From Candidatus Woesearchaeota archaeon (GTDB taxonomy: Archaea; Nanobdellota; Nanobdellia; Woesearchaeales; DSVV01): a stretch of 64,000 bases of DNA. Below are positions 8,290 to 57,188 of this stretch, piece after piece. The translations under genes and the position numbers were made by a program. The stretch spans positions 124,001 through 188,000 of the forward strand of contig JABJHR010000019.1 in NCBI GenBank assembly GCA_018661705.1, read 5' to 3'. The stretch's first letter is position 1. Each line of letters begins with the position of its first letter. A model generated the notes under the pieces. That model saw only the letters and a list, made by a program, of their open reading frames with translations, was not told where the DNA came from and did no database searches.

Positions 8290-8673
8290 GTGGAAGAAGT
8301 TAAAAAAAATGTATTAATTGTTGATGATGAACCACATATTGTAAACCTTATCAAGCTTAGCTTGAACAAAGAGAAGTATGATGTGACTGGTGCTTATTCT
8401 GCAAGAGAAGCACTAATGCATATGGAAAAAGCAATTCCTGATATAGTTGTTTTAGATTTAATGATGCCAGGGATTAATGGTTATGAATTGTGTAAAGCAT
8501 TAAGAGAGAATCCTAAAACAAGGGATGTTCCTGTTTTAATTTTAAGTGCTAAATCACAAATGAATGATAAATTACATGCTATTGATGTTGGGGCAGACGA
8601 TTACATGACAAAACCATTTGATCCAATGGAACTTGTCAAAAGAATAAAACTTAACCTTAACATGGAACAGTAA
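8290..8673 (+). CDS. Stand-alone response regulator receiver (CheY-like)
   Basis: 127 aa, starting at a GTG behind the G8 run. It is a complete receiver: acidic pair Asp12-Asp13 ('LIVDDEP'), phosphoacceptor Asp56 ('VVLDLMMPG'), the switch Ser86 ('LILSAKS') and Lys108 ('DDYMTKPFDP'). There is no output domain, so it signals through protein contacts or as a phosphorelay. It is the first gene of a signalling block with an HTH-receiver protein and two histidine kinases; the kinases downstream are the natural phosphodonors. The receiver is close in sequence to the one inside the next protein, which suggests duplication. Confidence 0.85.
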   Translation: MEEVKKNVLIVDDEPHIVNLIKLSLNKEKYDVTGAYSAREALMHMEKAIPDIVVLDLMMPGINGYELCKALRENPKTRDVPVLILSAKSQMNDKLHAIDVGADDYMTKPFDPMELVKRIKLNLNMEQ

Positions 8674-8687
8674 TTCCTTTATTGTGG

Positions 8688-8742
8688 TTTGACTTGAGTT
8701 AGATTTGAATTAAATTAGGGTTAAATTGAAATTAAATTTAAC
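8688..8742 (+). repeat. Five 11-bp tandem direct repeats upstream of the HTH-receiver gene
   Basis: Units begin at 8688, 8699, 8710, 8721 and 8732. The last three share TTAAATT exactly, the second has TTAGATT, and the first (TTTGACT) is degenerate. The 11-bp period places all units on one face of the helix, as expected for a cooperative operator. They lie in the 132-base gap before the gene at 8806, whose product has an HTH domain. Confidence 0.6.
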
Positions 8743-8805
8743 TTTCCATATAAGGGAAATATCAACAGATTAGGATAAACAGTATTATATCTAAGTAATA
8801 AACAG

Positions 8806-9834
8806 GTGGTTAAGATAAAAAATAATAACGAAAATATTAAAGAAAAAATCATAAGTTTTCTTAAAAAAACAAAAATTGGTGAAACATCTACTGATATTGC
8901 TAAACAAATTGGGCACAATCGTTTAACTGTATCCAAATATTTAGAGGTTCTTCAAGCACAAAGTCTTGTTACAAATCAAGAGATTGCACAGGCTAAGTTG
9001 TGGACTTTAGTAAATAAAGCCCCAAAACCAAATATTTTAGTTGTGGATGATGAACACCATGTTGTTAATCTAATTAAACTAAGTTTGTCGCATGATAAAT
9101 TTAATCTTTTTGATGCACATACGGGAAAAGAAGCACTTGAAGTTATTAAAAAAAATAAAATTGATTTAGTCTTACTTGATTTAATGATGCCTGGGATGAG
9201 TGGTTATGAGGTTTCTAAAATTATAAAAGAAAATCCTTTAACTTCACATATTCATGTTATTATGTTGAGTGCGAAAGGAGAATTAAAAGATAAAATTAAT
9301 GGTATTGAGTTTGGTGCAGATGATTATATGACAAAACCATTTGATCCAACAGAGTTAGAAGCCAGAATAAATCTTAGTTTAAGATATCCTCCTGTTAATG
9401 GTAAACACCCCGTTACGGGTTTACCAACATTAAAACTAATTGAAGAACATGTTCAAAATTTATTAGATAAAAAGCAACAGTTTCATCTTTATAATTTTAA
9501 ATTAGATGGTCTTAATAAATTTGCTGAAGCTAATGGTTATAAAAAATTAAATGATTTTATTGTTTTGTTTACTAGATTAGTTTCTGATAATATCAGGGGG
9601 AAAAATTGTTTTTTTGGTCATACAATAAAAAATGATTTTGTAGTTGTGGGGCCACATCCTGAATTAGATGGAACTATTTCTACTGAATTTAAAAAAGTTT
9701 TACCTTATTTTGATGAAAACTCAAAAAAAATATTTAAGTTGGATGTGAATAAACTTAATAGTGGTGTGATTACAAATAACCCTGAACAAGATTGTAGTAA
9801 AATCCTGGCGAGCGCAAATATTATGCCCCCTTAA
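8806..9834 (+). CDS. HTH - receiver - degenerate GGDEF-like fusion
   Basis: 342 aa, GTG start. Residues ~10-65 form a winged-helix-type HTH ('TSTDIAKQIGHNRLTVSKYL'). Residues ~75-190 are a receiver with Asp81-Asp82, phosphoacceptor Asp125 ('LVLLDLMMPG') and Lys177. Residues ~200-335 follow the diguanylate cyclase fold: the start 'HPVTGLPT' matches the usual DxLTGLxN, 'NFKLDGLNKFAEANGYKKLND' matches the metal/substrate helix region, and 'GHTIKNDFVV' occupies the GGDEF position. The catalytic GG(D/E)EF is lost (IKNDF), so cyclase activity is unlikely and a binding or structural role is more probable. The HTH at the N-terminus, ahead of the receiver, is an uncommon order. Confidence 0.75.
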   Translation: MVKIKNNNENIKEKIISFLKKTKIGETSTDIAKQIGHNRLTVSKYLEVLQAQSLVTNQEIAQAKLWTLVNKAPKPNILVVDDEHHVVNLIKLSLSHDKFNLFDAHTGKEALEVIKKNKIDLVLLDLMMPGMSGYEVSKIIKENPLTSHIHVIMLSAKGELKDKINGIEFGADDYMTKPFDPTELEARINLSLRYPPVNGKHPVTGLPTLKLIEEHVQNLLDKKQQFHLYNFKLDGLNKFAEANGYKKLNDFIVLFTRLVSDNIRGKNCFFGHTIKNDFVVVGPHPELDGTISTEFKKVLPYFDENSKKIFKLDVNKLNSGVITNNPEQDCSKILASANIMPP

Positions 9835-9881
9835 AAGTCTTTTGAGAAGATAACTTTTAAACAATTTAAAATTTAAATAAA

Positions 9882-11417
9882 ATGATATTATCAGTCAAGA
9901 GAAAGATCTTATTATTGATCACAGTTGCAATAGCTTCTGCAATATTATTTGTTGGTCTTTATCTAGGAAAATTACCTTTGGTGGATGCAACAGGTAATGT
10001 TATTTCTGCTCATGCTTTTGAGCATACAAGTTTTCTTAAAAGTTTTTATACAATCGGTTCAATAACTTTATTGGGATTAGTGTTTATTGCAACGTTATTT
10101 GTTCATGTTCTTGTTAAACCACTAGACAAGGTTATTATTGGGACACAACTTGTTGCTAAAGGTGACCTTGATCAAAAAATTGATGTTAAAAGCAAGGATG
10201 AATTTGGACAATTAGTTTCATCTTTTAATTACATGGTGACTAAGTTAAAAGCAGAGAAAAAACATGGTGTTAAAGTAAGAAATATTGCTACCAAAGAAAA
10301 AACAAAAGCAGAGTTAGTTATTGATTCCATGGGTGATGGTGTGATAGTTACAGATAAAAATAATAAAATTGTTGTTTTTAATCAGGCGGCAGAGAATATA
10401 TTCAATTTTGATATGAAAAAAGCATTAGGAAAACACATTGTTCAACTTAAAAAATATGGTTTAAATAATTTACATCTTGATCCCGAAGACGAAGATTTTG
10501 TTGATATTAATGAACGCTTTGGTAAAAATTCGGGAAAGAGCCTAGAAAAAAATCTTAAAAAACACACAAAAGGAAAAGGGATGCAACGTGAAAGATTAAA
10601 CAAAGAGATAGAATTTCATGTTAAACCATTAAATAAGGTTGTAAATGCAACAGTTTCATCCCTTTTTGAAAATCAAAAATTTTTAGGATCTATTTGTGTA
10701 TTAAGAGATATAACCACCTTAAAAAGAGTAGATAATATGAAAACAGAATTTATTAGTACAGTTAGTCACGAGTTAAGAACGCCCCTTACTAGTATTAAAG
10801 GTTATGCATCATTACTTAGTTTGGGAAGGCTTGGTGAAACTAATTATAAACAATCAAAGGCTTTGAAAATAATAAATAGTGAATCAGACAGATTAATGGA
10901 AATTATAAATGATCTTCTAGATATTTCAAAATTAGAGTCTGGAAATGTTGCTTTAAACTATGAAAAAACAGAGATTTTGAGTTGTATTAATGAGTGTTCT
11001 GCCATGCATCTTGCGAAAGGTAGGAATATTAAGATAAAAAAAGACATACCTTTAAAACTCCCTCTTATTACAATAGATAAACAAAAGATAATTAGGGTTT
11101 TTGATAATCTTCTTGGAAACGCAATAAAATTTAGCAAGGATAATAGTGAAATTTCTTTGTCAATTAAGAAATTAAAAAATTCACTTAATATTGCAATTAC
11201 TGATCATGGTAAAGGAATTAGTAAAGATGATCTAGAAAAAATATTTGATAAATTTTACCAATCAGAAGACCACATGGTTCGTGAAATAGGTGGTTCTGGT
11301 CTGGGATTACCGATTGTTAAAAAAATAATTGAATTACATAAAGGAAAGATTAATATTAAAAGTAAGTTAGGGGTGGGAACAACAATTAATTTTTCCATCC
11401 CCTTTACCTCAAATTAA
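9882..11417 (+). CDS. Membrane histidine kinase, 2TM-HAMP-PAS-HisKA-HATPase
   Basis: 511 aa. Two membrane helices (about 8-27 and 56-78) bracket a very short external loop. A HAMP linker follows (79-130, ending 'DEFGQLVSSFNYMVTKL'), then a PAS domain (about 138-280, 'IDSMGDGVIVTDKNNKIVVFN'). The HisKA H-box is 'FISTVSHELRTPLTSIKGY' with phospho-accepting His296, and the catalytic domain has the N box 'NLLGNAIKFS', G1 'DHGKGIS' and G2 'GGSGLGLPIV'. With so little external domain it probably senses membrane or internal cues. It follows the HTH-receiver gene by 47 bases and precedes a second kinase by 13. Confidence 0.88.
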   Translation: MILSVKRKILLLITVAIASAILFVGLYLGKLPLVDATGNVISAHAFEHTSFLKSFYTIGSITLLGLVFIATLFVHVLVKPLDKVIIGTQLVAKGDLDQKIDVKSKDEFGQLVSSFNYMVTKLKAEKKHGVKVRNIATKEKTKAELVIDSMGDGVIVTDKNNKIVVFNQAAENIFNFDMKKALGKHIVQLKKYGLNNLHLDPEDEDFVDINERFGKNSGKSLEKNLKKHTKGKGMQRERLNKEIEFHVKPLNKVVNATVSSLFENQKFLGSICVLRDITTLKRVDNMKTEFISTVSHELRTPLTSIKGYASLLSLGRLGETNYKQSKALKIINSESDRLMEIINDLLDISKLESGNVALNYEKTEILSCINECSAMHLAKGRNIKIKKDIPLKLPLITIDKQKIIRVFDNLLGNAIKFSKDNSEISLSIKKLKNSLNIAITDHGKGISKDDLEKIFDKFYQSEDHMVREIGGSGLGLPIVKKIIELHKGKINIKSKLGVGTTINFSIPFTSN

Positions 11418-11430
11418 TGGAGTGACGTAA

Positions 11431-14130
11431 ATGAGCAGAAACTACAATTTGAATCTATGGAATGATGTTTTGTTTAATTGTAATTCTCACGGGATTTTAA
11501 TTACTGATTCTAATGGTAAAATTAAATCAATAAATAAAAAATTTACAAAGATTACAAATTATTCAAAAAGTTTTTTTGGAGATAATTATAATATCAAAAA
11601 TATTTTTGGGGAAGAAGTAAATAATGTCTTTCCTTTAAATAATAAAACTAAACCCTTCTGTAAGGAAATTAAAAATGTTTCATTAGTTTCAAAGGATGGG
11701 ACTAAGAAAATAATTAATCTTGAGATTGTTTTTGTTCCATCATCTGAAGAAGTAATCTTTTTAGTATATGATATCACCAAAAGAAATGAGTTTGAAGAAA
11801 AGCTAAAAAAACAAAATCAATTATTAAAATTAAGGTATGAGATTAGTAATGCATTGCAAGCAACAGATGATCTTAATGAAATATTTAATCTATCTATTAA
11901 GGCTTTTAAAGAAAATGGCTATGACAGGGTTAGGATTTATCTTTTTGACAAGAACAAGAAAGCCCTTATTGGAAAAAGATCATCAGGAGAGGAAGATGCA
12001 ATTATGGGTAACGTAATTTTAGAAATAGATGAATCTTACAAAAAAGTACATCATTGTTTTACAAAGAAAAAACCAATTGTCTTATCAACAAAACATAAAA
12101 CTCAATATCATAAGCATTTAAAAAAAGAAGGGGTGGAGGAAACAGCTAGCATTCCTTTGTTAAGTGGGGAAAAAGTTGTTGGGATGATTAGTATTGACAA
12201 TAAGCATAGTAAAAAACAAATAAAAAAAGAAGATTTAATTAATATTGTGCCATTAGCTAATCATATTGCGGTTGCTATTGAGAATGCCCTTTTACATTTA
12301 GAAAACAGAAAGAAATTAAGAAAATTAACTGCATTGTATGATATCTCAACTTCTTTGTCTACAAGTGTTGATCTAGATAAAATATTAAATTTGATTATTA
12401 TTAAAATTGTAAAACTTGTTAAGTGTGATATTTGTAGTGTGACCTTGCTAGATAAATCAAAAGAATTTCTTATTCCCAAGTCTACTTATGCCTCTCCTAA
12501 AGAATATTTTAAATGTGGTCCTGTGCCCTATGATAATAGTGTTTCTGGTTTAGCACTGAAAACTAATCAACCAGTATATATTGCTGATGTATTAGGGGAA
12601 CCACTTTATTGTTATAAAAGATTTGCAAAAGAATCAAAATTAAAATCTCTTTTAAGTGTTCCTTTAGTTCTAAAGAATGAGGCCTTGGGAGTAATTAATT
12701 TATACACGAAAAAAGAAAAAAAATATTCTAAAAACGAAGTAGATCTTCTGAAGAGCCTAGCTAGTCAAATTGCCTTGAGTATTAAAAATTATGACTATTT
12801 TGAACGTATTAACAATGAAAAGGAAAGTTTTTCTCACTTATTAAAATTAAGTCAAGTAATTAATTCACAATTAAAGATTGAAAATCTACTTAAAATAATA
12901 TTAGAAAAGACCTTAGAATATACAGGGGCTGATGCGGGTTATTTACTTTTAATTAAAGAAGATGCTCTTGAACTTAAGCATATGCGAGGTTATTCAAATA
13001 CCGATGTTGGTAGAATTAGTATAAAAATTGGTGAAGGCATTACAGGGCTTGTTGCTCAACAAGGAAAACCAATAGTTGTTTCTGATGTAAGGTCAGACCC
13101 TAAATATATTGCATTAAACAAGGAAACGATGTCTGAAGCAGCAATCCCATTAATCAAAGCAGGCAAGGTTATTGGTGTTCTTAATCTCGAAAGTAGAAAA
13201 TATGGTGCATTTAAGAGATTCCAAAAACCTTTGGAAATTTTAACAAACCAAATTGCAGTTGCCATTGAAAATTCTAGATTATATCATGAAATTAGTTTAT
13301 TTAATGAAACTTTAAAGAATGAAGTTTATATGGCAACTAAAGAATTAGTTGAGAAAAATAAAGAACTTGAAAGAATGGATAAACTTAAATCTGATTTTGT
13401 TAGTAATGTCAGTCATGAATTAAGAACACCTCTAACTAGTATTAAGGGTTATGCTAAATTACTTGCGGATGGTCGTTTAGGAGAGTTACCTGAGAAACAT
13501 TTACAATGTATGAATATTGTTCTTGAGGAAACAGATCGTTTAACAAGGTTAATTAATGATGTTTTAGATTTAGCAAAATTAGAAAGGGGTAAGATTAGAT
13601 ATAAAAAAGAAAAAGTTAATTTAGTAACAGTTGGAGACAACGTTATTAATACTCTTGCAACATTAGCAGATGACAAAGATATTAAAATTCATTTTAATGT
13701 TTCAGATGATCTACCTTTGGTTAATGCAAGCCAAGACTTAATAAAACAGGTATTCTTCAATCTAATTGGTAATGCAATTAAATTCACACCCCAAAAAGGA
13801 AATATTTATGTTGATATTGTTGAAGAAAGTCGTCAAACTAACCCAAACAACCAAATTAATCAAGGCAATCAAATTCTTCAAAGTGATCAAGCTTATTTGA
13901 AGGTTACTGTTAGGGATACGGGTATTGGAATTCCTAAAGAAATAATCCCTAAACTTTTTGATAAATTTTACCAGGTAGATAGTTCTATGACTAGGGAACA
14001 TGGGGGAACAGGATTAGGATTACCAATTTCAAAACACATTATAGAAATTCATAAAGGAGAAATATATGTGGAAAGTAAAGTTGGTAAAGGTAGCAGCTTT
14101 ATTTTTGCATTACCTTTAAGAAAAGAATAA
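11431..14130 (+). CDS. Soluble histidine kinase, PAS-GAF-GAF-GAF-HisKA-HATPase
   Basis: 899 aa with no membrane helix. An N-terminal PAS (about 10-130, 'ILITDSNGKIKSINKKFTKI') is followed by three GAF domains (about 135-290, 295-455, 465-620), each ending in the 'AVAIENA' type helix; a coiled coil leads to HisKA with His662 ('FVSNVSHELRTPLTSIKGY'). The HATPase domain has 'NLIGNAIKFTP', 'DTGIGIP' and 'GGTGLGLPIS', with an Asn/Gln-rich insertion near bases 13830-13890. GAF domains commonly bind small molecules or chromophores, but no chromophore cysteine can be assigned. Its HisKA region closely matches that of the preceding kinase, suggesting duplication. Confidence 0.85.
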   Translation: MSRNYNLNLWNDVLFNCNSHGILITDSNGKIKSINKKFTKITNYSKSFFGDNYNIKNIFGEEVNNVFPLNNKTKPFCKEIKNVSLVSKDGTKKIINLEIVFVPSSEEVIFLVYDITKRNEFEEKLKKQNQLLKLRYEISNALQATDDLNEIFNLSIKAFKENGYDRVRIYLFDKNKKALIGKRSSGEEDAIMGNVILEIDESYKKVHHCFTKKKPIVLSTKHKTQYHKHLKKEGVEETASIPLLSGEKVVGMISIDNKHSKKQIKKEDLINIVPLANHIAVAIENALLHLENRKKLRKLTALYDISTSLSTSVDLDKILNLIIIKIVKLVKCDICSVTLLDKSKEFLIPKSTYASPKEYFKCGPVPYDNSVSGLALKTNQPVYIADVLGEPLYCYKRFAKESKLKSLLSVPLVLKNEALGVINLYTKKEKKYSKNEVDLLKSLASQIALSIKNYDYFERINNEKESFSHLLKLSQVINSQLKIENLLKIILEKTLEYTGADAGYLLLIKEDALELKHMRGYSNTDVGRISIKIGEGITGLVAQQGKPIVVSDVRSDPKYIALNKETMSEAAIPLIKAGKVIGVLNLESRKYGAFKRFQKPLEILTNQIAVAIENSRLYHEISLFNETLKNEVYMATKELVEKNKELERMDKLKSDFVSNVSHELRTPLTSIKGYAKLLADGRLGELPEKHLQCMNIVLEETDRLTRLINDVLDLAKLERGKIRYKKEKVNLVTVGDNVINTLATLADDKDIKIHFNVSDDLPLVNASQDLIKQVFFNLIGNAIKFTPQKGNIYVDIVEESRQTNPNNQINQGNQILQSDQAYLKVTVRDTGIGIPKEIIPKLFDKFYQVDSSMTREHGGTGLGLPISKHIIEIHKGEIYVESKVGKGSSFIFALPLRKE

Positions 14131-16055: not shown

Positions 16056-17693
16056 TTACACTGATATTATTTCATCCCAAATACTTCGTCTATCATCTTC
16101 TTCTTCACTATCTTTTTCAGCAAATGGTTTAAGTCTTTTTCTTCTATTTCTATTTCTGAGTTTTTCTAATGCTTTTACTTCAATTTGTCTAATTCTTTCT
16201 CTTGTAACAAAAAAATCCTTACCAACTTCTTCAAGCGTGTATTCTCTTATTTCTCCAATTCCAAACCTCATTCTTATAACTTTTTCTTCTCTTGGTGTTA
16301 ATGTTGCTAACACTTTTCTGGTTGATTCTGTAAGGGCCTGCGCTATAATACTAACAACAGGTTGTGTTGCTTGTCTGTCTTGGACAAAATCCCCTATTGT
16401 TCCTCCATCTCCTTCTATGCCTACGGGGGCATGTAAGCTAATTGGTTCATACTTTAATAGTTTTAAGATTTTGTTAATATCATTAACCCCTACCCCACAT
16501 TTATCTGAAAGCTCTTCGGATGTTGGTTTTCTTTCTAAGGTATCAGAAAGTTCTCTTCTTGTATGTAAAACTCTATTAAATTTCTCAACTAAATGAACAG
16601 GAATTCTAATTGTTTTCCCAGAATCAGCAATTGATCTTGATAATGATTGTCTAATCCACCATGTTGCATATGTTGAAAATTTAAAGCCTCTTCTATAATC
16701 AAACTTTTCAACAGCTTTTAATAAGCCAAGGTTACCTTCTTGTATCAAATCCAAGAATGCAAGGCCCCGGTTTACGTATTTTTTAGCAATACTTACAACT
16801 AATCTCAAATTCGCTTCTGTAAGTTTTTTTGATGCTTCTTCTCTAGCCCCTAAATATTTTTTCCCTTCTGCAATTAAGTCTCTTGCATATGTCATTCCTT
16901 TCTCTGTTTTTAGTCTTTGATAATAAATTGTCTGAAATAAGTTTTTAGAAACAATTTTTTCAAGATCTTTCTTTCCTACGTTTGGATTAGCACTTACAGC
17001 TGCTTCAAACAAATCAAGTTCTGTTTCAAATTTAGTGATTATTTCTTCAAGAACAACATAATTTAATCCTAAACGAGAAATATAACTAACACCATTTTCT
17101 ATTTCTTTTGGCTTTAGTTTTTGTTTAAGCCAATTTTTTTTCTTATACTTGCGTTTTAAATCAGTTTCATATCTTGCTAATTTTTCTATGCCAGCAACAA
17201 AAAAACTGATGTAATCTTCATTTGCATATCCTGTTTTAGATTTTAATTTTTTAACATCCTTTTTTTGATCTTTTTCAGGAGATGATTCAGAATCAGCTAG
17301 CCCCCCTTCTTGTTCAAGAGAATTATATTCTTCTTCTCTTCTTGCGATAATATGATCTAAAAACGTTTCCTCTTCTTCATAATGTGTTGTTCTCAAGTAT
17401 TGTGAGGGTTCTACTCTTTCTACTTCAAGTTCTCTTAAAACATCTGCGACTGTATCTTTAAAATAATTGTGTAAACGAAAGAAACATAATTCATATAGGT
17501 TACCTCTTGCTTCTTCTTTTTGTTTTCCTAGGCGTACTTCTTCTTTTCTATCAATAAGAGGGACTCTGCCAATTCTTCTTAAATACGCAGTCACGGGATT
17601 TTTTAATTGATAATCATTTCCATCTCCATTCCCCTCTTTACTTCCATGGCTTTTTTCAGAGCTACCGTTTCCCCCATCATTGTTCCCACCCAT
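16056..17693 (-). CDS. Bacterial-type sigma-70 family RNA polymerase sigma factor (RpoD-like)
   Basis: 545 aa. Residues 1-30 are Gly/Asn-rich and replace region 1.1. Region 1.2 is at 31-60 ('[20 protein letters not shown]'), then a long non-conserved region (61-285). Region 2 (286-360) includes '[20 protein letters not shown]' (core binding) and '[20 protein letters not shown]', keeping Trp345-Trp346 and Gln349; the residue matching E. coli Thr440 is Ser352. Region 3 spans 361-440, and region 4 (455-520) has the HTH '[18 protein letters not shown]' with Arg498, Glu499 and Gln503. The C-terminus is acidic. All core- and DNA-contact motifs look functional. The gene lies among archaeal genes and behind a TATA box. 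How it would work with archaeal RNA polymerase is unknown. Confidence 0.93.
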
Positions 17694-26179: not shown

Positions 26180-26187
26180 TTTATATA
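26180..26187 (+). promoter_or_regulatory. TATA box of the RelA/SpoT gene
   Basis: TTTATATA, centred 27 bases before the ATG at 26211; the mRNA is expected to be leaderless. Confidence 0.55.
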
Positions 26188-26210
26188 TTTACTTCATATT
26201 CTTACTGGGA

Positions 26211-28109
26211 ATGAGGCAATCTGAATTCATTAAGGAAATTTTAGCTTATAATGTAAAGGCAAATATAGCTATGATTAGAAAGGCATATGTGTTAGCAGAA
26301 AAAGCTCATAAAGGTCAAAAAAGAGAAGGTGGAGAAGAATATTTTTCACATCCTTTGGGGGCTGCCCAAATTTTAATTGAATTAAAAGCAGATTCTGCTA
26401 CTATCTGTGCTGCTTTATTGCATGATGTTGTAGAAGATACAGATGTTAGTATTGAAAAGATTAAATCTTTATTTGGAGATGAAATTGCAAGCTTAGTTGA
26501 AGGCGTAACAAAGATTGAAAAAATTCATTTCAAAAGAAAAGAAGATTACACCTCAGAAAATTTAAGAAAAATTCTTTTAGCAACTGCAAAAGATATTAGG
26601 GTTATGTTGATCAAACTAGCAGATCGTTTACATAATATGAGAACTTTAAAAGCACTTAGATCTGATAAACAACAGAGGGTAGCTAGGGAAACATTAGAAA
26701 TTTACGCCCCAATTGCTCATAAACTCGGTGTTTGGAGAATCAAAGGAGAATTAGAAGATCTTTCTTTAAGATATTTAGAACCCGATGTTTATCGTTTTTT
26801 AGCTAGTAAAATTGCAGGAAAAAGAACTGAGCGAGAAAACCATACCACTGAAATTACTAAAACAATTAAAAGAAAACTTAAAGAAAAAGGTGTTGTTGCA
26901 GCAGTTTTTGGTAGGGCGAAATATTTTTATAGTATTTACAAAAAAATGAAAAAGAAAAATATTGCATTTAATGAGATCTATGATCTTATTGCAATTAGAA
27001 TTATTACAAAAACAATTCCTGATTGTTATTCTGCCCTTGGTTTAATTCATGATTCATTTAAGCCAATTCCTCACAGATTTAAAGATTATATCTCTGTACC
27101 AAAATCTAATGGTTATCAGAGTTTACACACGTCGGTGATTACAGACAAAGGAAAAATATTGGAATTTCAAATTAGGACAGAAGAAATGCATTATGTTGCA
27201 GAAGATGGTGTTGCAGCTCATTGGCGTTATCAAGGAACTGAAAGAGATAAAATGTTTGATAAAAAAATCTCTTGGTTAAAACAATTACTTGAATGGCGAA
27301 CTTTTGCCAGTAGTTCTTCAGAATTTATTGAAACTTTAAAGATGGATTTATTTGTTGATGAAATGGTTGTATTTACTCCAAAAGGAGATCCTATTTCTTT
27401 ACCTTACGAAGCAACACCTGTTGATTTCGCATACATGGTTCATACTAACATAGGCAATCATTGTTCTAAGGCATTAATTAATAATAAAATTGCGCCAATG
27501 GAATCAAAGTTAGAATCAGGAGATATAATTGAAATTATGACCAACAAAAATGCAAAACCTTCCAGGCATTGGTTAAAATTTGTCAAGACAAGTAAGGCTA
27601 GGAGTAAAATAAAATCATTTTTGGGCATGGATATTGATCAAGAGAAAAAATCAGAAAAAAGCAAACAAGTTGATATTTCTAAATGCGTACAAATTGTCGG
27701 TAAAAAAGCACCAATCAAAGTTTCAAAATGTTGTAATCCTCAATTATTTGATCCTATTGTTGGTTTTTACACAAAAGATAAGAAAATAACTCTTCACAAA
27801 AAATCTTGTCCTAACATCCATACTTTAGAAAAAAATAAAGAAGTGCCAATTCTTTGGATTGAAAAAAGGGGCTTCCCTGTTGCTAAATTAAGATTAACTC
27901 TTGAGGACAAAGTTGGTGCATTAGCTAGAGTTTTAAATCTTTTTGCTTCTTATAAAGTTAATATTAGGGGAGTTACAACAAAACCAAAAAAAGAACATGT
28001 TGTAACAACAATCTCTGTTGAATTAACAGGCGGGGTTAAGGTAGATGAAATCTTATCTGAATTAAAAAAGTTAGATATTATTGTTGCTGTTGAAGAGGTG
28101 AAATCATGA
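26211..28109 (+). CDS. Bifunctional-type RelA/SpoT (p)ppGpp synthetase/hydrolase
   Basis: 632 aa with the long RSH order. HD hydrolase (about 20-170): His47, 'LLHDVVEDT' with His71-Asp72 and Glu75-Asp76. Synthetase (about 215-345): 'GRAKYFYSIYKKM', 'YDLIAIRII', 'HRFKDYISVPKSNGYQSLH' and 'EFQIRT'; the RFKD motif (289-292) is the form of bifunctional and SpoT-type enzymes, in contrast to EFDD of RelA. A TGS domain (about 365-440), a Cys-containing segment ('VSKCCNP') and an ACT domain (about 560-630) complete it. All catalytic motifs look intact. The stop overlaps the start of the methionine aminopeptidase gene by 4 bases. Confidence 0.92.
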   Translation: MRQSEFIKEILAYNVKANIAMIRKAYVLAEKAHKGQKREGGEEYFSHPLGAAQILIELKADSATICAALLHDVVEDTDVSIEKIKSLFGDEIASLVEGVTKIEKIHFKRKEDYTSENLRKILLATAKDIRVMLIKLADRLHNMRTLKALRSDKQQRVARETLEIYAPIAHKLGVWRIKGELEDLSLRYLEPDVYRFLASKIAGKRTERENHTTEITKTIKRKLKEKGVVAAVFGRAKYFYSIYKKMKKKNIAFNEIYDLIAIRIITKTIPDCYSALGLIHDSFKPIPHRFKDYISVPKSNGYQSLHTSVITDKGKILEFQIRTEEMHYVAEDGVAAHWRYQGTERDKMFDKKISWLKQLLEWRTFASSSSEFIETLKMDLFVDEMVVFTPKGDPISLPYEATPVDFAYMVHTNIGNHCSKALINNKIAPMESKLESGDIIEIMTNKNAKPSRHWLKFVKTSKARSKIKSFLGMDIDQEKKSEKSKQVDISKCVQIVGKKAPIKVSKCCNPQLFDPIVGFYTKDKKITLHKKSCPNIHTLEKNKEVPILWIEKRGFPVAKLRLTLEDKVGALARVLNLFASYKVNIRGVTTKPKKEHVVTTISVELTGGVKVDEILSELKKLDIIVAVEEVKS

Positions 28110-28996
28110 ACGCGGAATTAGAGGAATATAAAGATTGGATAACAGCTGGAAAAATTGCTAGTGACGTAAGAGAATATTCTAAAGAAATTATTAAACCAGG
28201 TGTTAAGCTTTTAGATGTTGCAAACAAAATTGAAGATAAGATTAGAGAATTAGGGGCGATTCCTGCTTTTCCAGTAAATTTAAGTTCTGATAATTTTGCT
28301 GCACACTACACTCCTTCTCCAGATGATGAAACAATTATTGAAAAACAAATTCTAAAAGTTGATGTCGGTGTTTGTTATAAGGGCGCTATCGGGGATACTG
28401 CTTTTACATTAGATCTTTCTAATCAAAATTCAGAGTTAATTGAAGCAAGTAGAAAAGCTGTTGAAAATGCAATTAAGATTTTAAAAGTTGGCACAACTTT
28501 AGGAGAAATAGGAAAAGTAATTGAAGATACTATTGTTAATTTGGGATTTCAACCAATTAGAAATTTGTCTGGCCATGGTTTAGATTTATTTCAAATACAC
28601 ACAAAGCCAAGCATACCTAATTATGATAATGGCGATACTACAGAAATAAAAAAAGGCATGATCTTTGCAATTGAACCCTTCGCAACAAATGGTGGTGGTA
28701 AGATAAGGGAAGGGAGTCACCCTAATATTTACATGCAAACAAATAATAGGCCTATCAGAGACATGATCACAAGAAAGATTTTTGAAGAAATAAAGCAATT
28801 TAAGCAATTACCCTTCTCAACTAGGGATTTAGTTGCTAAATTCCCTTTAAACCAAGTTAAAATGGCTTTAAAACGGCTTATGATGGCAAATAACATTCAT
28901 GAATATCCTCCTTTGCCAGAAGTTAGTGATGGTTTAGTTAGCCAGCATGAGCATACTATTCTTATGTTGGATGAGCCAGTAGTATTGACAAAATAA
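28106..28996 (+). CDS. map: Methionine aminopeptidase, type II
   Basis: 296 aa, the archaeal length. The pita-bread fold residues are visible: 'SSDNFAAHYTPSPDDET' (substrate His), 'LKVDVGVCYKGAIGDTAFTL' (two metal Asp), 'SGHGLDLFQIHT' (metal His), 'GMIFAIEPFAT' (metal Glu) and 'SQHEHTILML' near the end. An insertion between the last two carries the helical subdomain that defines type II. It removes the initiator methionine co-translationally. It overlaps the RSH gene by ATGA, so they are translationally coupled. Confidence 0.93.
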   Translation: MNAELEEYKDWITAGKIASDVREYSKEIIKPGVKLLDVANKIEDKIRELGAIPAFPVNLSSDNFAAHYTPSPDDETIIEKQILKVDVGVCYKGAIGDTAFTLDLSNQNSELIEASRKAVENAIKILKVGTTLGEIGKVIEDTIVNLGFQPIRNLSGHGLDLFQIHTKPSIPNYDNGDTTEIKKGMIFAIEPFATNGGGKIREGSHPNIYMQTNNRPIRDMITRKIFEEIKQFKQLPFSTRDLVAKFPLNQVKMALKRLMMANNIHEYPPLPEVSDGLVSQHEHTILMLDEPVVLTK

Positions 28997-29169: not shown

Positions 29170-29273
29170 GGGGCTGTGGGGTAGTTTGGTCTATCCTTTC
29201 TGGTTTGGGAGGGCATTACATATGTATTGCTCAAAAATGCCAGAGGACCCCAGTTCGAATCTGGGCAGCCCCA
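29170..29273 (+). tRNA. tRNA-Pro (UGG) with a 29-base intron
   Basis: The acceptor GGGGCTG (29170-29176) pairs perfectly with CAGCCCC (29266-29272), followed by A73; no CCA is encoded. The T arm is CCCAG-TTCGAAT-CTGGG. The anticodon stem is TCTGG (29199-29203) with CCAGA (29240-29244), and the loop TTTGGG gives anticodon TGG at 29206-29208. Bases 29210-29238 interrupt the loop at the canonical 37/38 site. Intron helix GGGCA/TGCTC and exon TTTG with intron CAAA suggest a bulge-helix-bulge for the archaeal splicing endonuclease. The exact intron ends could shift by one base. Confidence 0.9.
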
Positions 29274-45243: not shown

Positions 45244-46947
45244 TTATTTTCTAATCAACCAATTACCCATTGCCAAGTATTTTAATCCTGAATTTTCTAA
45301 TGTGAATATTGCGGATTCAGGAGTATCTACTAATGGATAACCATGTAAATTAAAACTTGTATTGAGCATTCCACTAATTCCAGTATGTTTTTCAAATTCT
45401 TTTAATACATTTAGATAACCAGGATTCCATTCTTGTACGGTATTTGGTCTTGCCGTTCCATCTAGTGGGTGTGTTCCTGCTACAATCTCATCTCGTTTAT
45501 CTGTTGTGTCAAAGCTATCAATCATATATCTGGATGGGCAACCATCTACTAAATATCTATTCATTCTTTTTTCAATAAGACTTACAGCAAAAGGCATCCA
45601 AAAATCTCTTTTTTTAATTGCAAAATTAATATCCCGAATAACCTTTAAATCACTTGGATTACCAAGAATACTTCTGTTTCCTAATGCTCTTGGTCCCCAT
45701 TCTGTTCTTCCACTATGTCTTGCAACTATTTTATCTTTAGCAACTAATTCACCAACTTCTTGATCAATTCTATCGACAAATGTTGCTTTTTTTAACCAGC
45801 CTTTATTTTTTAAAACTTCTTTTATGTGGTCATTTTCAAATTCTCTGCCATAATAAACATCACCTATCTCATGATGTTGTGCTTTTATGCCATTTTTTCT
45901 ACAATGTTTATAATATGCTTCTAAGGCTGCTCCTACTGGAGTTCCACCATCATCAGCGGCAGGATAAAAGAAAATATTATCAACTTCTGGCATTTCTCTT
46001 AATATTTTATTTGCTTTAACATTAAGGAACATTCCACCTGCACAAACAACATTATGTAATCCTGTTTTTTTGATTCCATTTTTTACCCATTGTTTAACTA
46101 CTCTCTCAAAATGTAGTTGGGTTGCGGCGCTTAAATTATCAAATCTATGTTCGTGTAATCTATGTTTTAATTTTTGTCCTATGTATGGGCCAATTGCTCT
46201 CATTCTATTTTGAAATTCTAATGGCCGTTTTGGATTAATTCTAATTATTTTTTTTACTTCATCTATGCTGTATTCTGCTTTTCCATATGCTGCCATTCCC
46301 ATTACTTTGTATTCATGTTCCCATCTTTTTAATCCCATATAACCAGTCATTTCACTGTATAACACATTTCCTAAACTATTGTAAAATGTTGTTGCAGCAA
46401 TCCTTTGCATTCTATTTTTATGACCTATATTGACCGTTGCACTTAAGCCATCTCCTGCTCCGTCACTTGTTAAAACTAAGTTTGGCTTTTTACCTTTATT
46501 TTTAGAAATTGGTTTAGAATAATGTGCACAAGCAGCATGACATTTTTGATGTTCAACAAATGTTAATTCTTTGTTTTGTAACCCCATTTGTTTTAAGGCT
46601 TTATGTACATCATCCATTTTTCTGAATTTGTGTAGAATTTTTACATACCACTTAGAAAATGAATGCCCATCTAAATATGGTGCCAATCTATAAAATAATT
46701 TTACATGTAATGGAAACTCTTTCAGGGGTGAATATGTTCGATTTAAGCTTACCATAGAAATTACGTCTGTTTCATCAGGGTGAATCTTTGCAATTTGATA
46801 AACTGCTTTCATTGCCCTTGTAGGAACTCCTGAATAGTTTTTTATGTTTCTTAATCTTTCTTCTTGTATTGCTGCTACAACTTTGCCATTTTTAACTAAA
46901 GCTGCACCTGCATTATGACCATCATTAATCCCTAATACAATAACCAT
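45244..46947 (-). CDS. Carbamoyltransferase, NodU/CmcH family
   Basis: 567 aa. The N-terminal ASKHA-like half starts 'VLGINDGHNAGAALVKNGKV' and 'IQEERL', with 'FVEHQKCHAACAHYSKP' as the HxxCH-type metal motif and 'VCAGGMFLNVKANKIL'. The C-terminal YrdC-like half has 'RHSGRTEWGPRALGNRSIL' and 'GMLNTSFNLHGYPLVDTPES'. Members carbamoylate sugar or antibiotic hydroxyls using carbamoyl phosphate. In a glycan cluster it probably decorates a sugar residue. The mRNA leader is about 98 bases from a TATA box at 47069, ending in GAGGTG. Confidence 0.9.
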   Translation of the reverse strand: MVIVLGINDGHNAGAALVKNGKVVAAIQEERLRNIKNYSGVPTRAMKAVYQIAKIHPDETDVISMVSLNRTYSPLKEFPLHVKLFYRLAPYLDGHSFSKWYVKILHKFRKMDDVHKALKQMGLQNKELTFVEHQKCHAACAHYSKPISKNKGKKPNLVLTSDGAGDGLSATVNIGHKNRMQRIAATTFYNSLGNVLYSEMTGYMGLKRWEHEYKVMGMAAYGKAEYSIDEVKKIIRINPKRPLEFQNRMRAIGPYIGQKLKHRLHEHRFDNLSAATQLHFERVVKQWVKNGIKKTGLHNVVCAGGMFLNVKANKILREMPEVDNIFFYPAADDGGTPVGAALEAYYKHCRKNGIKAQHHEIGDVYYGREFENDHIKEVLKNKGWLKKATFVDRIDQEVGELVAKDKIVARHSGRTEWGPRALGNRSILGNPSDLKVIRDINFAIKKRDFWMPFAVSLIEKRMNRYLVDGCPSRYMIDSFDTTDKRDEIVAGTHPLDGTARPNTVQEWNPGYLNVLKEFEKHTGISGMLNTSFNLHGYPLVDTPESAIFTLENSGLKYLAMGNWLIRK

Positions 46948-47068
46948 CTTAACACCTCATCCCCATTACTGATAATCTTATCACTTTATTCATAATCCTA
47001 ATTTTTAATTTGTAATTTTATAACATAATCTTTAATTATAATCTATTAATAAATGCACTCAATATCGA

Positions 47069-47076
47069 TTTATAAA
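47069..47076 (-). promoter_or_regulatory. TATA box of the carbamoyltransferase gene
   Basis: Minus strand: CATAATATTTATAAAT, with TTTATAAA at these bases. It shares the CATAATAT upstream part with the promoters near 49951, 57189 and 61752. The predicted start is about 98 bases before the ATG. Confidence 0.45.
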
Positions 47077-47128
47077 TATTATGAAGGTATAACCTATTAT
47101 ATTCTAGAACCACGATTAATTCATAACC

Positions 47129-47160
47129 TTGTTGTGACGAATTTCGAGAAAACACAACAA
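47129..47160. repeat. Inverted repeat, 8-bp arms
   Basis: TTGTTGTG (47129-47136) pairs with CACAACAA (47153-47160); the loop contains the small palindrome CGAATTTCG. It lies in the 296-base gap upstream of the carbamoyltransferase gene, just after the end of the glycosyltransferase gene at 47244. No gene is seen in the gap. Confidence 0.4.
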
Positions 47161-47172
47161 CCGCCATAATAC

Positions 47173-47239
47173 GATAACCTTCATAACTATTTATTGATAA
47201 CCAACTACAAACTTAGAACTTCTTACTTATGACTTTTTT
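47173..47239. repeat. Dispersed repeat, copy 2
   Basis: Shares the 16-mer TACAAACTTAGAACTT (47206-47221) and its flanks with 23545-23636, but lacks about 25 middle bases. As there, it ends within a few bases of a minus-strand stop codon. Confidence 0.5.
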
Positions 47240-47243
47240 CAAC

Positions 47244-48461
47244 CTAAATATCTCTGCTACTTTCAATCTTTTTCCATGTAACAATCTTTTTTCCACGTAA
47301 GAAATCAAACCACCCTAAAATAACTATCCAATTACTTGCTGTAAAATACTTAATGAAATTTAATATTTTATTGTGCGTAAAAAATCTATTTAATGTTAAT
47401 ATTAACGACAAAATTGTCAGAATAATTGCGCTAATTTCAAGCACGATCAGGAAGTGTACCCACCAACTATAATTTAAGAAAAATAATCCAATAGAACTTG
47501 CAAATACAAATAGCAATGCAAAAGGTGTTAGTAATTGAAATAATTTATGGCTTGTTAAAGTAATTACGCCATACCAACCATATTTTGGATTAAATAACAT
47601 ATTTTTGTGCTTGAACAATACTTGTAGTGTTCCAATTACAATTCTTTTTTTTTGTGTTTTTAAATCTTCAATATTTGTGGGTGCAGGTTCATATGCAATC
47701 GCATATGGCTCATAGATTATTCTAAATCCTTTTTTTCTAATTGAAACAGCCATATCAAAATCTTCTGAAAGTTGTGTTGTATCAACTTCTTTAACAACAC
47801 TTGCTCTAAATGCAGTTACTTCTCCACTCATATGAATACAACTATCAAGATTACTTTCACCACTTCTTAACATCCTTTCTATGCGCCAATAAATACTTCC
47901 TCCTTCTCCAGTTGATGTTCCATGTAAATCTCTTGCTTCAAATCTTCCACAAACACCACCAACTTTAGGATCATCAAAATGTCTGACAATATTCTTAATT
48001 GCCATCTTGTTCATCATAGCATTTCCATCAGTAATTATTATGATTTCTCCGGATGCTCTTTCTTTTCCATAATTAATTCCTGATGCTTTTCCTTCTCTTT
48101 TTGGTTGTGCAATTAGTTTTAGAATTCTTTTGTCTTTAGGATTTTTTTTATAAAACTCTTTTATAACCTTGTTTACAATTGATTGTGTTTTATCTGTAGA
48201 TGCACTATCAACAACAAATATTTCCAGTTTATCTTTTGGGTAATCAATCTCTAAGCTATTTTCTATTTTTTTTGCAATTGTTTTTTCTTCATTATAACTC
48301 ATAATCACCATAGTAACTTTTGGAAAAAATGCTTGATTAAGAAAATGATGTTTTTTTAGTAAAGGAGAAAACACAACTAAAAATACAGGGAATCCGATAA
48401 AAGTCCAAGCTAAGAATATGATTGAAATGTACAACACAAAATATAAAATTAGTTCTATCAT
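47244..48461 (-). CDS. Membrane glycosyltransferase, GT2 family
   Basis: 405 aa. One N-terminal helix (about 8-30), a GT2 domain with 'VTMVIMSYNEEKTIAKKIEN', 'IFVVDSASTDKTQSI' and 'IIITDGNAMMNKMAIKNIV' (DxD-like position), then 'TQLSEDFDMAVSIRKKGFRI' (ED motif of processive enzymes), and three C-terminal helices. It is therefore similar to cellulose/hyaluronan-type or dolichol-phosphate-linked membrane GT2 enzymes. It follows the radical SAM gene by 12 bases, so they form an operon. Confidence 0.85.
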   Translation of the reverse strand: MIELILYFVLYISIIFLAWTFIGFPVFLVVFSPLLKKHHFLNQAFFPKVTMVIMSYNEEKTIAKKIENSLEIDYPKDKLEIFVVDSASTDKTQSIVNKVIKEFYKKNPKDKRILKLIAQPKREGKASGINYGKERASGEIIIITDGNAMMNKMAIKNIVRHFDDPKVGGVCGRFEARDLHGTSTGEGGSIYWRIERMLRSGESNLDSCIHMSGEVTAFRASVVKEVDTTQLSEDFDMAVSIRKKGFRIIYEPYAIAYEPAPTNIEDLKTQKKRIVIGTLQVLFKHKNMLFNPKYGWYGVITLTSHKLFQLLTPFALLFVFASSIGLFFLNYSWWVHFLIVLEISAIILTILSLILTLNRFFTHNKILNFIKYFTASNWIVILGWFDFLRGKKIVTWKKIESSRDI

Positions 48462-48473
48462 TAGGTCTTCACT

Positions 48474-49937
48474 TCATTTTGTCAATTGCCATAATCCTTT
48501 CAAATAAACAATTGTATCTCCTGGTCTTTTTATTGCCGCTACCCTTTTTGCTATTATTTTAGGTCTGAAATAAAATTTTCTATAAGAATGCTTAACCCAT
48601 TTTGTTAAATATTCACTTGATAAATGAGGATATTGAATAATTGATTTTTTGCTTGGATCTGCTTTTCCAACATCCTTTTCAACAACCCATCCTTCTTGTA
48701 ATGCTTTTTCTCTGAATCTTGTTCCTGGAAATGGGCTACAAACTGCAAACTGTGCAAGATCAATGTTTAGTTTTAATACTCTATCGAGTGTTTCTTTTAA
48801 TGTTTCTTTTGTTTCAAGGGGGGACGCACCATATAAAATATTAAGTTTTGGTTCTATCCCATATTTTATTAGTAAATCAATAGATTTTTCAATTGTTTCA
48901 ACTTTTATTTCTTTGCCAACATCATCTAAAATTTCTTGACTAAAGCTTTCAACGCCAAAATCAACATAAACGCAGCCAGCATCTGCTAATGCTTTTACCA
49001 TTTCTTCATCTACTAATCTATCATTTCTAGCTAAAATCCCAAAAGGTAATCCTACTTCTTTAAAATGTCTGCAAACTTCTAAATGTCTTTCTTTTCCCCA
49101 TACAAATTGATCATCTATAACAGATATTGCTTTAATTCCAAGAGCTTTTATTTCTTCTAATTCTTTTCTAATATTTTCAGGGTCTCGAATTGTAACTGGT
49201 GGTTTTATACATTCTGGATTTTTATTACATCTTTTCCATTCTAGTTCTCTAGCATAACTTAAACTGTTTGGAACACAATACCAACACTTAGCATTACATT
49301 GTCTAGATGTTAACATAGTAGTATAAGGAGCGCCAGGTAATTTAGGATTAGTATATTTCTTGTAATGAATTAGTGATCTGTCAGGGGTTGGTAATTTGTT
49401 AATGTCTTTAATATATCCAAAACCAACATTTGTAATTATTTGATTTTCTTTTTTATGACTAAGCCCAGGTATTTGTTCTATGGGCATACAATCATCATTT
49501 GGTGTATTGTTTATTTTTTTATCAATAGCATCTACAACTTTGCTTATTACTGCTTCTGCTTCTCCCCTGATTACATAATAGTTTTCTTTTACCAAGAATT
49601 CTTTAGGATCTGAGGTTGGTCTTGGACCAAACCAAATTACTGATTTTTCTTGATTAAGATATTTTACTGCCTTTAGATCTAATTCTGCACATAAAGGAAC
49701 TGTGTGAAAACAATAAATATCAGAATTATCTTGTTTTGCCCATGCAATATATTCATTAAAGCTTAATCCTTCAACGGGCATATCCCTTATAACTACTTCA
49801 TGTCCCTTATTCTTTAGAATAGTTGCTGTATATAAAACTACTAAATTTGGTTGTGGGTATACTTGATATGTGCATCCGAACAATCTTTCAGCAGCACGCC
49901 CTTTTATTGTTGGAGGTGTAATAAATGTTATTTTCAT
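48474..49937 (-). CDS. B12-binding-domain radical SAM protein
   Basis: 487 aa. The N-terminal cobalamin-binding-like domain ('ITFITPPTIKGRAAERLFGC', 'VIRGEAEAVISKVVDAI') leads to the radical SAM core 'MLTSRQCNAKCWYCVPNSL' with CX3CX2C. Additional cysteines ('WKRCNKNPECIKPP') follow directly, an unusual insert. It ends with 'QFAVCSPFPGTRFREKAL', typical of this family. It is the second of three such proteins here. The operon with a GT2 and the position in a glycan island make sugar or lipid-carrier modification plausible but unproven. Confidence 0.82.
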   Translation of the reverse strand: MKITFITPPTIKGRAAERLFGCTYQVYPQPNLVVLYTATILKNKGHEVVIRDMPVEGLSFNEYIAWAKQDNSDIYCFHTVPLCAELDLKAVKYLNQEKSVIWFGPRPTSDPKEFLVKENYYVIRGEAEAVISKVVDAIDKKINNTPNDDCMPIEQIPGLSHKKENQIITNVGFGYIKDINKLPTPDRSLIHYKKYTNPKLPGAPYTTMLTSRQCNAKCWYCVPNSLSYARELEWKRCNKNPECIKPPVTIRDPENIRKELEEIKALGIKAISVIDDQFVWGKERHLEVCRHFKEVGLPFGILARNDRLVDEEMVKALADAGCVYVDFGVESFSQEILDDVGKEIKVETIEKSIDLLIKYGIEPKLNILYGASPLETKETLKETLDRVLKLNIDLAQFAVCSPFPGTRFREKALQEGWVVEKDVGKADPSKKSIIQYPHLSSEYLTKWVKHSYRKFYFRPKIIAKRVAAIKRPGDTIVYLKGLWQLTK

Positions 49938-49950
49938 TATATACTCGAGA

Positions 49951-49976
49951 CATAATATTTATTTATAAATATTATG
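49951..49976 (-). promoter_or_regulatory. 26-bp perfect palindrome containing the TATA box of the radical SAM gene
   Basis: CATAATATTTAT, then TT, then ATAAATATTATG: both 12-bp arms are exact. A TATA element (ATATTTATAAATA) lies inside, about 25-30 bases before the ATG at 49937. The symmetry could be a regulator site that occludes the promoter, or a bidirectional promoter; the plus strand has no gene for more than 2 kb. Confidence 0.45.
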
Positions 49977-50040
49977 TATGATTGTTGTATATGGTATACT
50001 AATAAGGATAATAAATAAATTAGAATATATTAATCCAAGG

Positions 50041-51003
50041 CTAATTTTCTTTAAACCATTCAATAGTCTTTTTAATACCTTCTTCAAACTCTATTTTTGG
50101 TTCCCAATCTAAGAATTGTCTTGCTGATGATATGTCTGGTTGTCTTTTAGTAGGGTCATCTTCGGGTAATGAATTAAATATTAACTTTGAATTAGAGTCA
50201 GCAGCATCAATTACTTTCTGAGCACATTCAAGAATTGTCATTTCTCTTGGATTTCCTAGGTTTTTAGGTCCAATTTCAGCACTATTCATCATTTTTACAA
50301 TTCCTTCAACTAAGTCTGTTACATAACAAAAACTTCTTGTTTGTTCTCCGTTTCCATAAATCGTAATTTCATTATTATTTAAGGCCTGCTGAATAAAATT
50401 TGGGATGACTCTTCCATCATCTTTTCTCATTTTTGGACCATATGTGTTAAATATTCTTATGATCTTAACTTTGGCATTAAATTTTCTATGATAAGCCATC
50501 AATAATGCTTCCCCAAACCTTTTACTTTCATCATAACAACTTCGAATTCCTACTGGATTAACATTTCCCCAATAAGTTTCTGGTTGTGGATGAACCTTTG
50601 GTTGCCCATATGCTTCTGATGTTGAGCTAAATAAAATAACTGCGTTATGTTTCATACTTAGTTTAATCATATTATTTAATCCAAGAGAATTTGATAAGGC
50701 AGTTTCAACAGGAAATTCTTGATAATCATTTGGTGATGCTCTAGAAGCAAGGTGATAAATCTGATTGATTTTGTTTTCCCCTACAAAACCTTTATTTTCA
50801 AGAATCTTCTCAAATTCTTCCAAAGTTTTAGTAATATCAAATTCAATAAATACAAAGTTCTCTTTTTCTTCAAATTCCTTAATATTCTTTCTATCTCCAC
50901 TACCTAAATTATCAACACAAATGATATTATCGCCTTTATTCAAAAGAAATTCACATAAGTGGCTTCCTATAAAGCCTGCTCCACCAGTTATTATTATATT
51001 CAT
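50041..51003 (-). CDS. UDP-glucuronate decarboxylase-like NAD-dependent epimerase/dehydratase
   Basis: 320 aa. The NAD loop is 'IIITGGAGFIGSHLCEFLL'. The motifs 'YHLASRASPNDYQEFPVETA', 'FSSTSEAYGQPKVHPQPE', 'GNVNPVGIRSCYDESKRFGE' (catalytic YxxxK) and 'RIFNTYGPKMRKDDGRV' closely match UDP-xylose synthases (UXS), which convert UDP-glucuronate to UDP-xylose. Other UDP-sugar products cannot be excluded. It is downstream (two bases) of a methyltransferase and a flippase-like gene, so the operon makes and handles a decorated sugar. Confidence 0.8.
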   Translation of the reverse strand: MNIIITGGAGFIGSHLCEFLLNKGDNIICVDNLGSGDRKNIKEFEEKENFVFIEFDITKTLEEFEKILENKGFVGENKINQIYHLASRASPNDYQEFPVETALSNSLGLNNMIKLSMKHNAVILFSSTSEAYGQPKVHPQPETYWGNVNPVGIRSCYDESKRFGEALLMAYHRKFNAKVKIIRIFNTYGPKMRKDDGRVIPNFIQQALNNNEITIYGNGEQTRSFCYVTDLVEGIVKMMNSAEIGPKNLGNPREMTILECAQKVIDAADSNSKLIFNSLPEDDPTKRQPDISSARQFLDWEPKIEFEEGIKKTIEWFKEN

Positions 51004-51004
51004 T

Positions 51005-51754
51005 TTAACACTTTTTTACCATTAATTCTATGTTGTTATTCATTCTACTTTTAATAATTATCCTTTTAATTAAGTTTGAACCTTCTAATGCTATATTTTT
51101 TATTTTAACATTATGTTTTTTTAAGCTTTTTGTTATGTTAAATGGTGTTATATAATTGATATGTTCAATATATTTATTATTTTTCCCAAACAACCATAAA
51201 TACTTTTTTGCTAATTTTTTTGGTAAAAGAGGGGGGTAAAACATTTTGTAATGTGCTTCATATGGGAATAAATAGTTTGGTGTTTTAATATATATGTATC
51301 TTTTATCTTTAGTTACTCTAATTGCTTCTTTTAATGCTTTATTAACATCCCCAACATGTTCTAAAACAGAGTGAAGAATTACTAAATCAAATGTTTTGTT
51401 TTTAAATGGGAGTTTTTCTGCCTTTCCTTTCACAAATTTCACATTAGAATTATGATTTTTTATTAATTCTTTTGAAATTTTAAGTACTTTATTATCTGGT
51501 TCTAATCCTGTAACAATGGCATCTTTTTTACTTGCTTCTAAACAAAAGCCGCCCCACCCAGAACCAATATCAAGAACTTTTTTATTCTTCAATATGATTA
51601 TTTTATTTATTTTTTTAATTATTTCTTTTTCTACTTTTCTTTCTAATTTTTGGTTTATTCTTTTTTTATAGTCTTTTAATCCTAACTCATTTAAGTAAAG
51701 TTGTTTAAGTTGCTTTTGTACCATTATCTTGTACTTTTTTTCTTTTTCATTCAT
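51005..51754 (-). CDS. Class I SAM-dependent methyltransferase
   Basis: 249 aa. 'KVLDIGSGWGGFCLEASKKD' is motif I (SAM-binding glycine loop), 'VTGLEPDNKVLKISK' contains the acidic residue for the ribose, and 'FDLVILHSVLEHVGDVNKAL' is the post-I region. The N-terminus is rich in Lys and Glu, the C-terminus in basic residues. It overlaps the flippase-like gene by 8 bases and precedes the UXS-like gene by two, so it probably methylates the sugar or lipid of that operon. Confidence 0.82.
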   Translation of the reverse strand: MNEKEKKYKIMVQKQLKQLYLNELGLKDYKKRINQKLERKVEKEIIKKINKIIILKNKKVLDIGSGWGGFCLEASKKDAIVTGLEPDNKVLKISKELIKNHNSNVKFVKGKAEKLPFKNKTFDLVILHSVLEHVGDVNKALKEAIRVTKDKRYIYIKTPNYLFPYEAHYKMFYPPLLPKKLAKKYLWLFGKNNKYIEHINYITPFNITKSLKKHNVKIKNIALEGSNLIKRIIIKSRMNNNIELMVKKC

Positions 51755-52661: not shown

Positions 52662-52745
52662 TTCTATTTATCATTATCAATTTATAAATCTTCTTAAACT
52701 AAAATAGATAAATATAAATAACTCTATTTTTTAATCATAATTCTA

Positions 52746-54307: not shown

Positions 54308-54318
54308 TTTTATGGCCT

Positions 54319-55464: not shown

Positions 55465-55563
55465 ATTCCATTACAAAATACATCTATTTATATTTATTAT
55501 GTATTATAATTCAGTAATAAGGATGCAGTAATAAGAAAGCTATGAAATTAGTATGTATTTTCT

Positions 55564-56028: not shown

Positions 56029-56085
56029 GTTTTCCTCTTTTATCTTTTCTTTTGAATGTTTTTACTTTTTTTCTCTTATCTATTC

Positions 56086-57069: not shown

Positions 57070-57188
57070 TTTTCTTACCTCATGATTATTTTTTATGATT
57101 TTTTTAGTTAGGGATCAAACCCTTTTTTAGTATCTTTTTTAACTATAATTTCTCCTTTTTTGGTCTTATTCCTCAGAAATAATAACAA

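Follow-up and report, generated by a model that had tools for sequence, protein, structure and literature searches.

A RelA/SpoT homologue without the helical domain in a Woesearchaeota archaeon: a probable bifunctional (p)ppGpp enzyme of an old archaeal branch

Introduction

The closest described relatives of the gene studied here are the bifunctional Rel enzymes of B. subtilis (6YXA), Streptococcus (RelSeq, 1VJ7) and Thermus (6S2T), which share with it the domain order HD, synthetase, TGS, zinc finger and ACT. Bacterial long RelA/SpoT homologues (RSHs) have six domains, one of them a helical domain of ~88 aa between the TGS and cysteine domains (PMC3153485). Roles for the TGS, AH, RIS and ACT modules come from structures (PMC4974054, PMC7058999), including those of ribosome-bound E. 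coli RelA (5IQR, 5KPV). H432 of RelA intercalates into the CCA end of an uncharged tRNA (PMC4974054), and substitution H432E abolishes tRNA activation of the enzyme (PMC7058999). The helical (AH) domain of RelA lies with its core against the D stem of the A/R tRNA, extends to TGS and ACT through its linker helices, and connects the zinc finger with TGS (PMC4974054). The SpoT proteins of Haemophilus ducreyi and Actinobacillus have lost both the helical and the CC domains (PMC3153485).

In the archaea tested in one study, which have no RSH, (p)ppGpp went undetected (PMC8646023). RelA/SpoT of DPANN archaea was nevertheless reported in 2021, with acquisition from bacteria predicted (PMC8407392); gene family and type of organism both match those described here, and the passage of that study on RelA/SpoT does not deal with domain architecture, clade structure or hydrolase decay. 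Sigma-70 genes in Woesearchaeota were also reported in 2021 (PMC8204110).

Here we describe rsh, a gene found in a stretch of 64,000 nucleotides from a Candidatus Woesearchaeota archaeon (hereafter the window). Its product shares all catalytic residues and the RFKD motif with bifunctional Rel, with 47% identity to 6YXA over 487 aligned columns, but it is without the ~90-aa helical domain, and its ribosome, promoter and host are archaeal. With E. coli RelA it shares the CCA contacts and zinc-finger ligands, whereas its hydrolase is intact and it lacks the AH domain, which in RelA packs against the D stem of the tRNA.

Results

The rsh gene is a single open frame that starts with ATG (Table 1). 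Pfam matches were obtained for HD_4 (4e-53), RelA_SpoT (3.2e-41), TGS (9.2e-18) and ACT (5.5e-11), and the protein scored 696 bits against the NCBIfam family TIGR00691 (spoT_relA), whose cut-off is 499.2. Pfam gave no match for the zinc finger (CC) domain, the four ligands of which are kept. All 8 HD residues and all 10 synthetase residues are as in bacterial enzymes, with positions numbered after bacterial Rel in the RelSeq literature. The preliminary description of this DNA had listed HD, synthetase, TGS and ACT domains with intact motifs, and these results bear it out. Residues P390, K391 and H411 correspond to P411, K412 and H432 of E. coli RelA, which contact the tRNA CCA end (PMC4974054). 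The AlphaFold model has a mean pLDDT of 83 and its best fold matches are RelA (5IQR), B. subtilis Rel (6YXA) and SpoT (7QPR), the nearest solved-structure relatives being Rel and RelA enzymes. No other gene with a RelA_SpoT domain was found in the 1.65-Mb genome. On contig 15 of this genome (G000), a 613-aa frame (L194:1789-3627) gives a weak second HD_4 match, with RKTGIPYVNHP and HDAIEE near its N-terminus and unfamiliar sequence in the remainder.

Table 1. Features of the rsh locus and of the sigma-70 family gene, in window coordinates
Feature	Position	Strand	Basis or remarks
Sigma-70 family gene, regions 1.2, 2, 3 and 4	16056..17693	-	Unlinked to rsh in relatives
Archaeal TATA box TTTATATATT, ~30 nt before ATG, predicted leaderless promoter	26180..26189	+	Purine-rich stretch just upstream
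rsh, long RelA/SpoT homologue without helical domain, 632 aa	26211..28109	+	ORF, Pfam, TIGR00691
HD (hydrolase) domain, residues 25-175	26283..26735	+	R38, H47, H71-D72, E75-D76, D138, N142, T145 intact
Synthetase (RelA_SpoT) domain, residues 234-343	26910..27239	+	R235, K237, K245, D258, Y302, H306, E318 intact
TGS domain, residues 386-444	27366..27542	+	Pfam; P390, K391, H411
Stub of Linker helix 1: predicted helix 461-479, following TGS	27591..27647	+	AlphaFold model
40-residue linker (467-506) in place of the ~90-aa helical (AH) domain of bacterial RSHs	27609..27728	+	Linker length, AlphaFold model
Zinc finger / CC / RIS core, C507 C508 H529 C533	27729..27818	+	Conserved ligands
ACT/RRM domain, residues 560-621	27888..28073	+	Pfam, AlphaFold model
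map, type II methionine aminopeptidase	28106..28996	+	TIGR00501, 308 bits; 4-nt overlap with rsh stop (ATGA)

The protein had been called full-length. Five of its domains are there, zinc finger included, but the helical domain is gone, and it is therefore better described as having all domains except the helical one. Between the conserved KARSKI motif that follows TGS and the CC pair, the linker spans 40 aa in the window protein and 36-53 aa in all 130 archaeal RSHs longer than 550 aa from the same phylum, against a median of 120 aa for the 77 bacterial RSHs among the matches listed. In the AlphaFold model, the helix that follows TGS gives way to disorder (478-487) and then to the zinc-finger and ACT folds, with no helical core between them. 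Judged from linker length, the helical domain is precisely excised in every sufficiently complete archaeal RSH examined (n = 130).

Only one bacterial protein of similar length among those 77 listed matches, L129, has a linker in the archaeal range. It is a gammaproteobacterial SpoT (L129:3983-5899) encoded in a gmk-rpoZ-spoT operon, and only its helical domain is gone. This operon context and its grouping with proteobacterial SpoT led us to reject it as a bacterial donor of the helical-less form; since it groups with proteobacteria, its deletion represents an independent loss. The TGS-ACT deletion in L129 and in the SpoTs of H. ducreyi and Actinobacillus removes the helical domain as in rsh, but these are separate losses within bacterial SpoT, and the H. 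ducreyi type is also without the zinc finger (PMC3153485).

Long RSHs had been described as rare in archaea, which does not hold for this lineage: one is present in about 70 of the 194 genomes of the window's order, about 115 of the 371 of its phylum and all 11 of its family, and RelA/SpoT in DPANN had already been published (PMC8407392). In two trees, the first with 71 archaeal and 77 bacterial proteins and the second with other columns and rows, a single branch with 99% SH-aLRT support separates the archaeal from the bacterial RSHs; both were quick searches with SH-aLRT and no bootstraps, their bacteria are among the matches listed in one scan, and their archaea belong to one phylum. The earlier view of a genuine long RSH of a bacterial family in an archaeon, with both catalytic sites intact, is supported. 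The pattern fits one old acquisition, or ancient presence, after which the gene would have been inherited mostly vertically and lost many times, and does not fit repeated import. The archaeal setting of the gene was confirmed by its 215-kb contig, which encodes L37ae, prefoldin, PTH2, class I LysRS, CDC48, GatD and a type II methionine aminopeptidase, and GC, GC3 and composition of rsh resemble those of neighbouring genes.

The residues expected for synthesis and tRNA recognition are kept throughout the archaeal clade. All ten synthetase positions are kept in 130 of 131 archaeal RSHs, which implies selection for synthesis. The histidine of TGS that corresponds to H432 of E. coli RelA is found in 131/131 and the CC-H-C zinc ligands in 128/131, and near-invariance of the CCA-gripping and zinc-finger residues suggests that tRNA/ribosome sensing has been kept. 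The position of the ribosome-contacting R629 is poorly conserved, being K524 in the window protein and G in 29 of 71.

Hydrolase domains have a different history. With a domain called degenerate when six or fewer of the eight HD positions match, 49 of the 131 archaeal RSHs are degenerate, while the window copy is intact. About 7 changes are needed on the tree to account for this decay, 3 of them forced by well-supported branches. Among the decayed long RSHs of related genomes are L184-L187, L191-L193 and L195-L227. The RFKD motif at residues 289-292 had been read as that of the bifunctional type. The motif is indeed present, but we reject it as a marker of bifunctionality in the archaeal clade: KD is kept in 47 of the 49 hydrolase-degenerate proteins and DD occurs in 27 of the 82 intact ones (uncorrected p = 5e-6; the independent changes are too few to allow a test on the tree). 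A separate hydrolase compensating for the loss was likewise unsupported, as a separate HD_4 gene was not enriched where the hydrolase was lost (15/48 versus 18/68 genomes, p = 0.68). In 33 of the genomes whose RSH has a degenerate hydrolase, no further HD_4 gene was detected, and since HD_4 genes are no commoner where the hydrolase is lost, these genomes appear to hold a synthetase without a recognised hydrolase.

The rsh gene is preceded by a TATA box, with a purine-rich stretch just upstream of it. In 128 archaeal rsh genes, 48 occurrences of the motif TTTAWA lie between -35 and -26, where 6 would be expected, and none of the 128 has a GGAGG up to 20 nt from the start. A TATA element near -30 without Shine-Dalgarno sites makes these genes look naturalised, and this is the signature expected of leaderless TBP/TFB transcription, which we predict for the window gene. 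Sigma-70-like sites near rsh are no commoner than in shuffled sequence, and the sequence gives no sign of the sigma factor transcribing rsh.

Downstream, the start codon of map does overlap the rsh stop, as first noticed, but the coupling of the two genes that this suggested was not upheld. map adjoins rsh only in G000, G001, G005 and G008, which belong to two genera of the window's family; gaps of 95-240 bp separate the genes in three of the four, and the overlap is unique to the window genome. An rsh-map operon as a functional unit was rejected because the arrangement is confined to these four genomes, and the pairing is a local arrangement and not a functional signature. Other genomes of the family share gene order around rsh; some of them keep the divergently oriented genes upstream and tpi/pth2, and neighbours differ outside the family. 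Between map and L37ae lies an intron-containing tRNA gene (29170-29273, +) that was found by Rfam and missed by ARAGORN; its anticodon loop reads TTTGGGA, making it probably tRNA-Pro TGG, and the listed start of the L37ae ORF (29186) falls inside it.

A sigma-70 family gene lies 8.5 kb from rsh in the window, and the two had been proposed to form an imported regulatory pair that should recur together across relatives. We counted two sigma families (region 2 and region 3) over 194 genomes. For region 2, sigma and RSH were both present in 31 genomes, RSH only in 39, sigma only in 40 and neither in 84 (p = 0.12), and an odds ratio of ~1.5 (p ~0.48) was obtained when each family was represented by a single genome. 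For region 3, the uncorrected p of 0.014 rose to 0.097 when the window's family was left out and to ~0.46 when single genomes stood for families. Outside the window's family the association was weak (p = 0.10 and 0.41). No sigma gene was found in the same-genus genome G001, which has an RSH, and relatives have the two genes on separate contigs or at a great distance from each other. After correcting for family, coupling of sigma and RSH over the 194 genomes is unsupported. In the window's sigma gene, region 1.2 lies ~230 aa from region 2, and relatives often hold several different sigma-like genes. Near it, at 8290-14130 (+), are two response regulators and two large histidine kinases (HAMP/PAS; triple GAF) of a bacterial-style two-component type.

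Discussion

Our results favour, with a probability of roughly 0.6, the view that rsh encodes a bifunctional enzyme of (p)ppGpp synthesis and hydrolysis that belongs to one ancient archaeal branch of long RSHs and is activated by uncharged tRNA in a compact ribosome geometry. From conserved residues and the predicted fold, we infer that the enzyme makes and removes (p)ppGpp and is switched by uncharged tRNA. During amino-acid starvation, H411 of TGS would recognise the CCA end of uncharged tRNA, while the zinc finger and ACT would anchor the enzyme to the archaeal ribosome in a geometry shorter than that of bacterial RelA, because the module contacting the tRNA D stem is absent. Recognition of the tRNA would turn synthesis on and hydrolysis off, and the (p)ppGpp produced may act on GTP-dependent targets and not via a sigma factor. 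Several observations count against this reading. The one study of archaea cited above, on species that lack RSH, did not detect (p)ppGpp (PMC8646023). Loss of the helical domain together with a poorly kept R629 position means that activation by the ribosome could be lost, and the 33 genomes with no other HD_4 gene are odd for an alarmone cycle.

Loss of the helical domain is the ground for a different proposal, in which rsh would be a SpoT-like sensor independent of the ribosome and controlled either by small molecules or proteins that act through ACT/TGS, or by free uncharged tRNA. In RelA it is the helical domain that contacts the tRNA D stem and links the zinc finger to TGS (PMC4974054), and SpoT proteins have lost it repeatedly, independently in L129 and along with CC in H. 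ducreyi and Actinobacillus (PMC3153485). We regard this as possible, but the odds seem to be against it, given that the CCA-gripping TGS residues and zinc-finger ligands are essentially invariant in the archaeal proteins. A protein that has become inactive, or that makes a different product, is very unlikely: hydrolase decay is common in the clade, often with no detectable replacement, but the window copy keeps every HD and synthetase residue and the synthetase is invariant across the clade.

The two remaining explanations both look to bacteria and are likewise very unlikely. Import of sigma factor and ppGpp as a coupled package draws on the proximity of the two genes and the uncorrected region-3 co-occurrence, which disappears once each family counts only once and is weak beyond the family of the window; absence of linkage in relatives, the sigma-less G001, the archaeal TATA promoter and sigma-like sites at shuffle level all speak against it. 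As for a contaminant contig or recent or repeated transfer, the long RSH is a bacterial family for which a bacterial origin was predicted in the 2021 report (PMC8407392), but the position of all archaeal RSHs on one side of a branch and their shared deletion count against such transfer, as do the archaeal contig, the gene order kept in family genomes and a GC and GC3 like those of the neighbours.

Extending the tRNA-activated reading of rsh to the whole clade is tentative and, on present sequence data, rather doubtful: there may be an archaeal stringent response of its own kind, based on an ancient RSH clade with a compact C-terminal half that would sense uncharged tRNA on archaeal ribosomes, with many members being synthetase-only. 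If true, synthetase-only members with no known hydrolase partner imply another route of alarmone removal. With a widespread archaeal RSH clade of single origin that keeps catalytic and tRNA-sensing residues, the question of whether archaea have a stringent response becomes directly testable, and archaeal RSHs without the helical domain are a natural experiment on the function of that domain. Genome G210 carries two long RSHs, L172 and L198, with the hydrolase intact in one and decayed in the other, plus a short HD_4 gene, and this pair resembles the RelA/SpoT division of labour. Elsewhere in the window, 45244-61684 is a long block for surface-sugar biosynthesis that includes epimerases, glycosyltransferases, a carbamoyltransferase and B12-radical SAM proteins.
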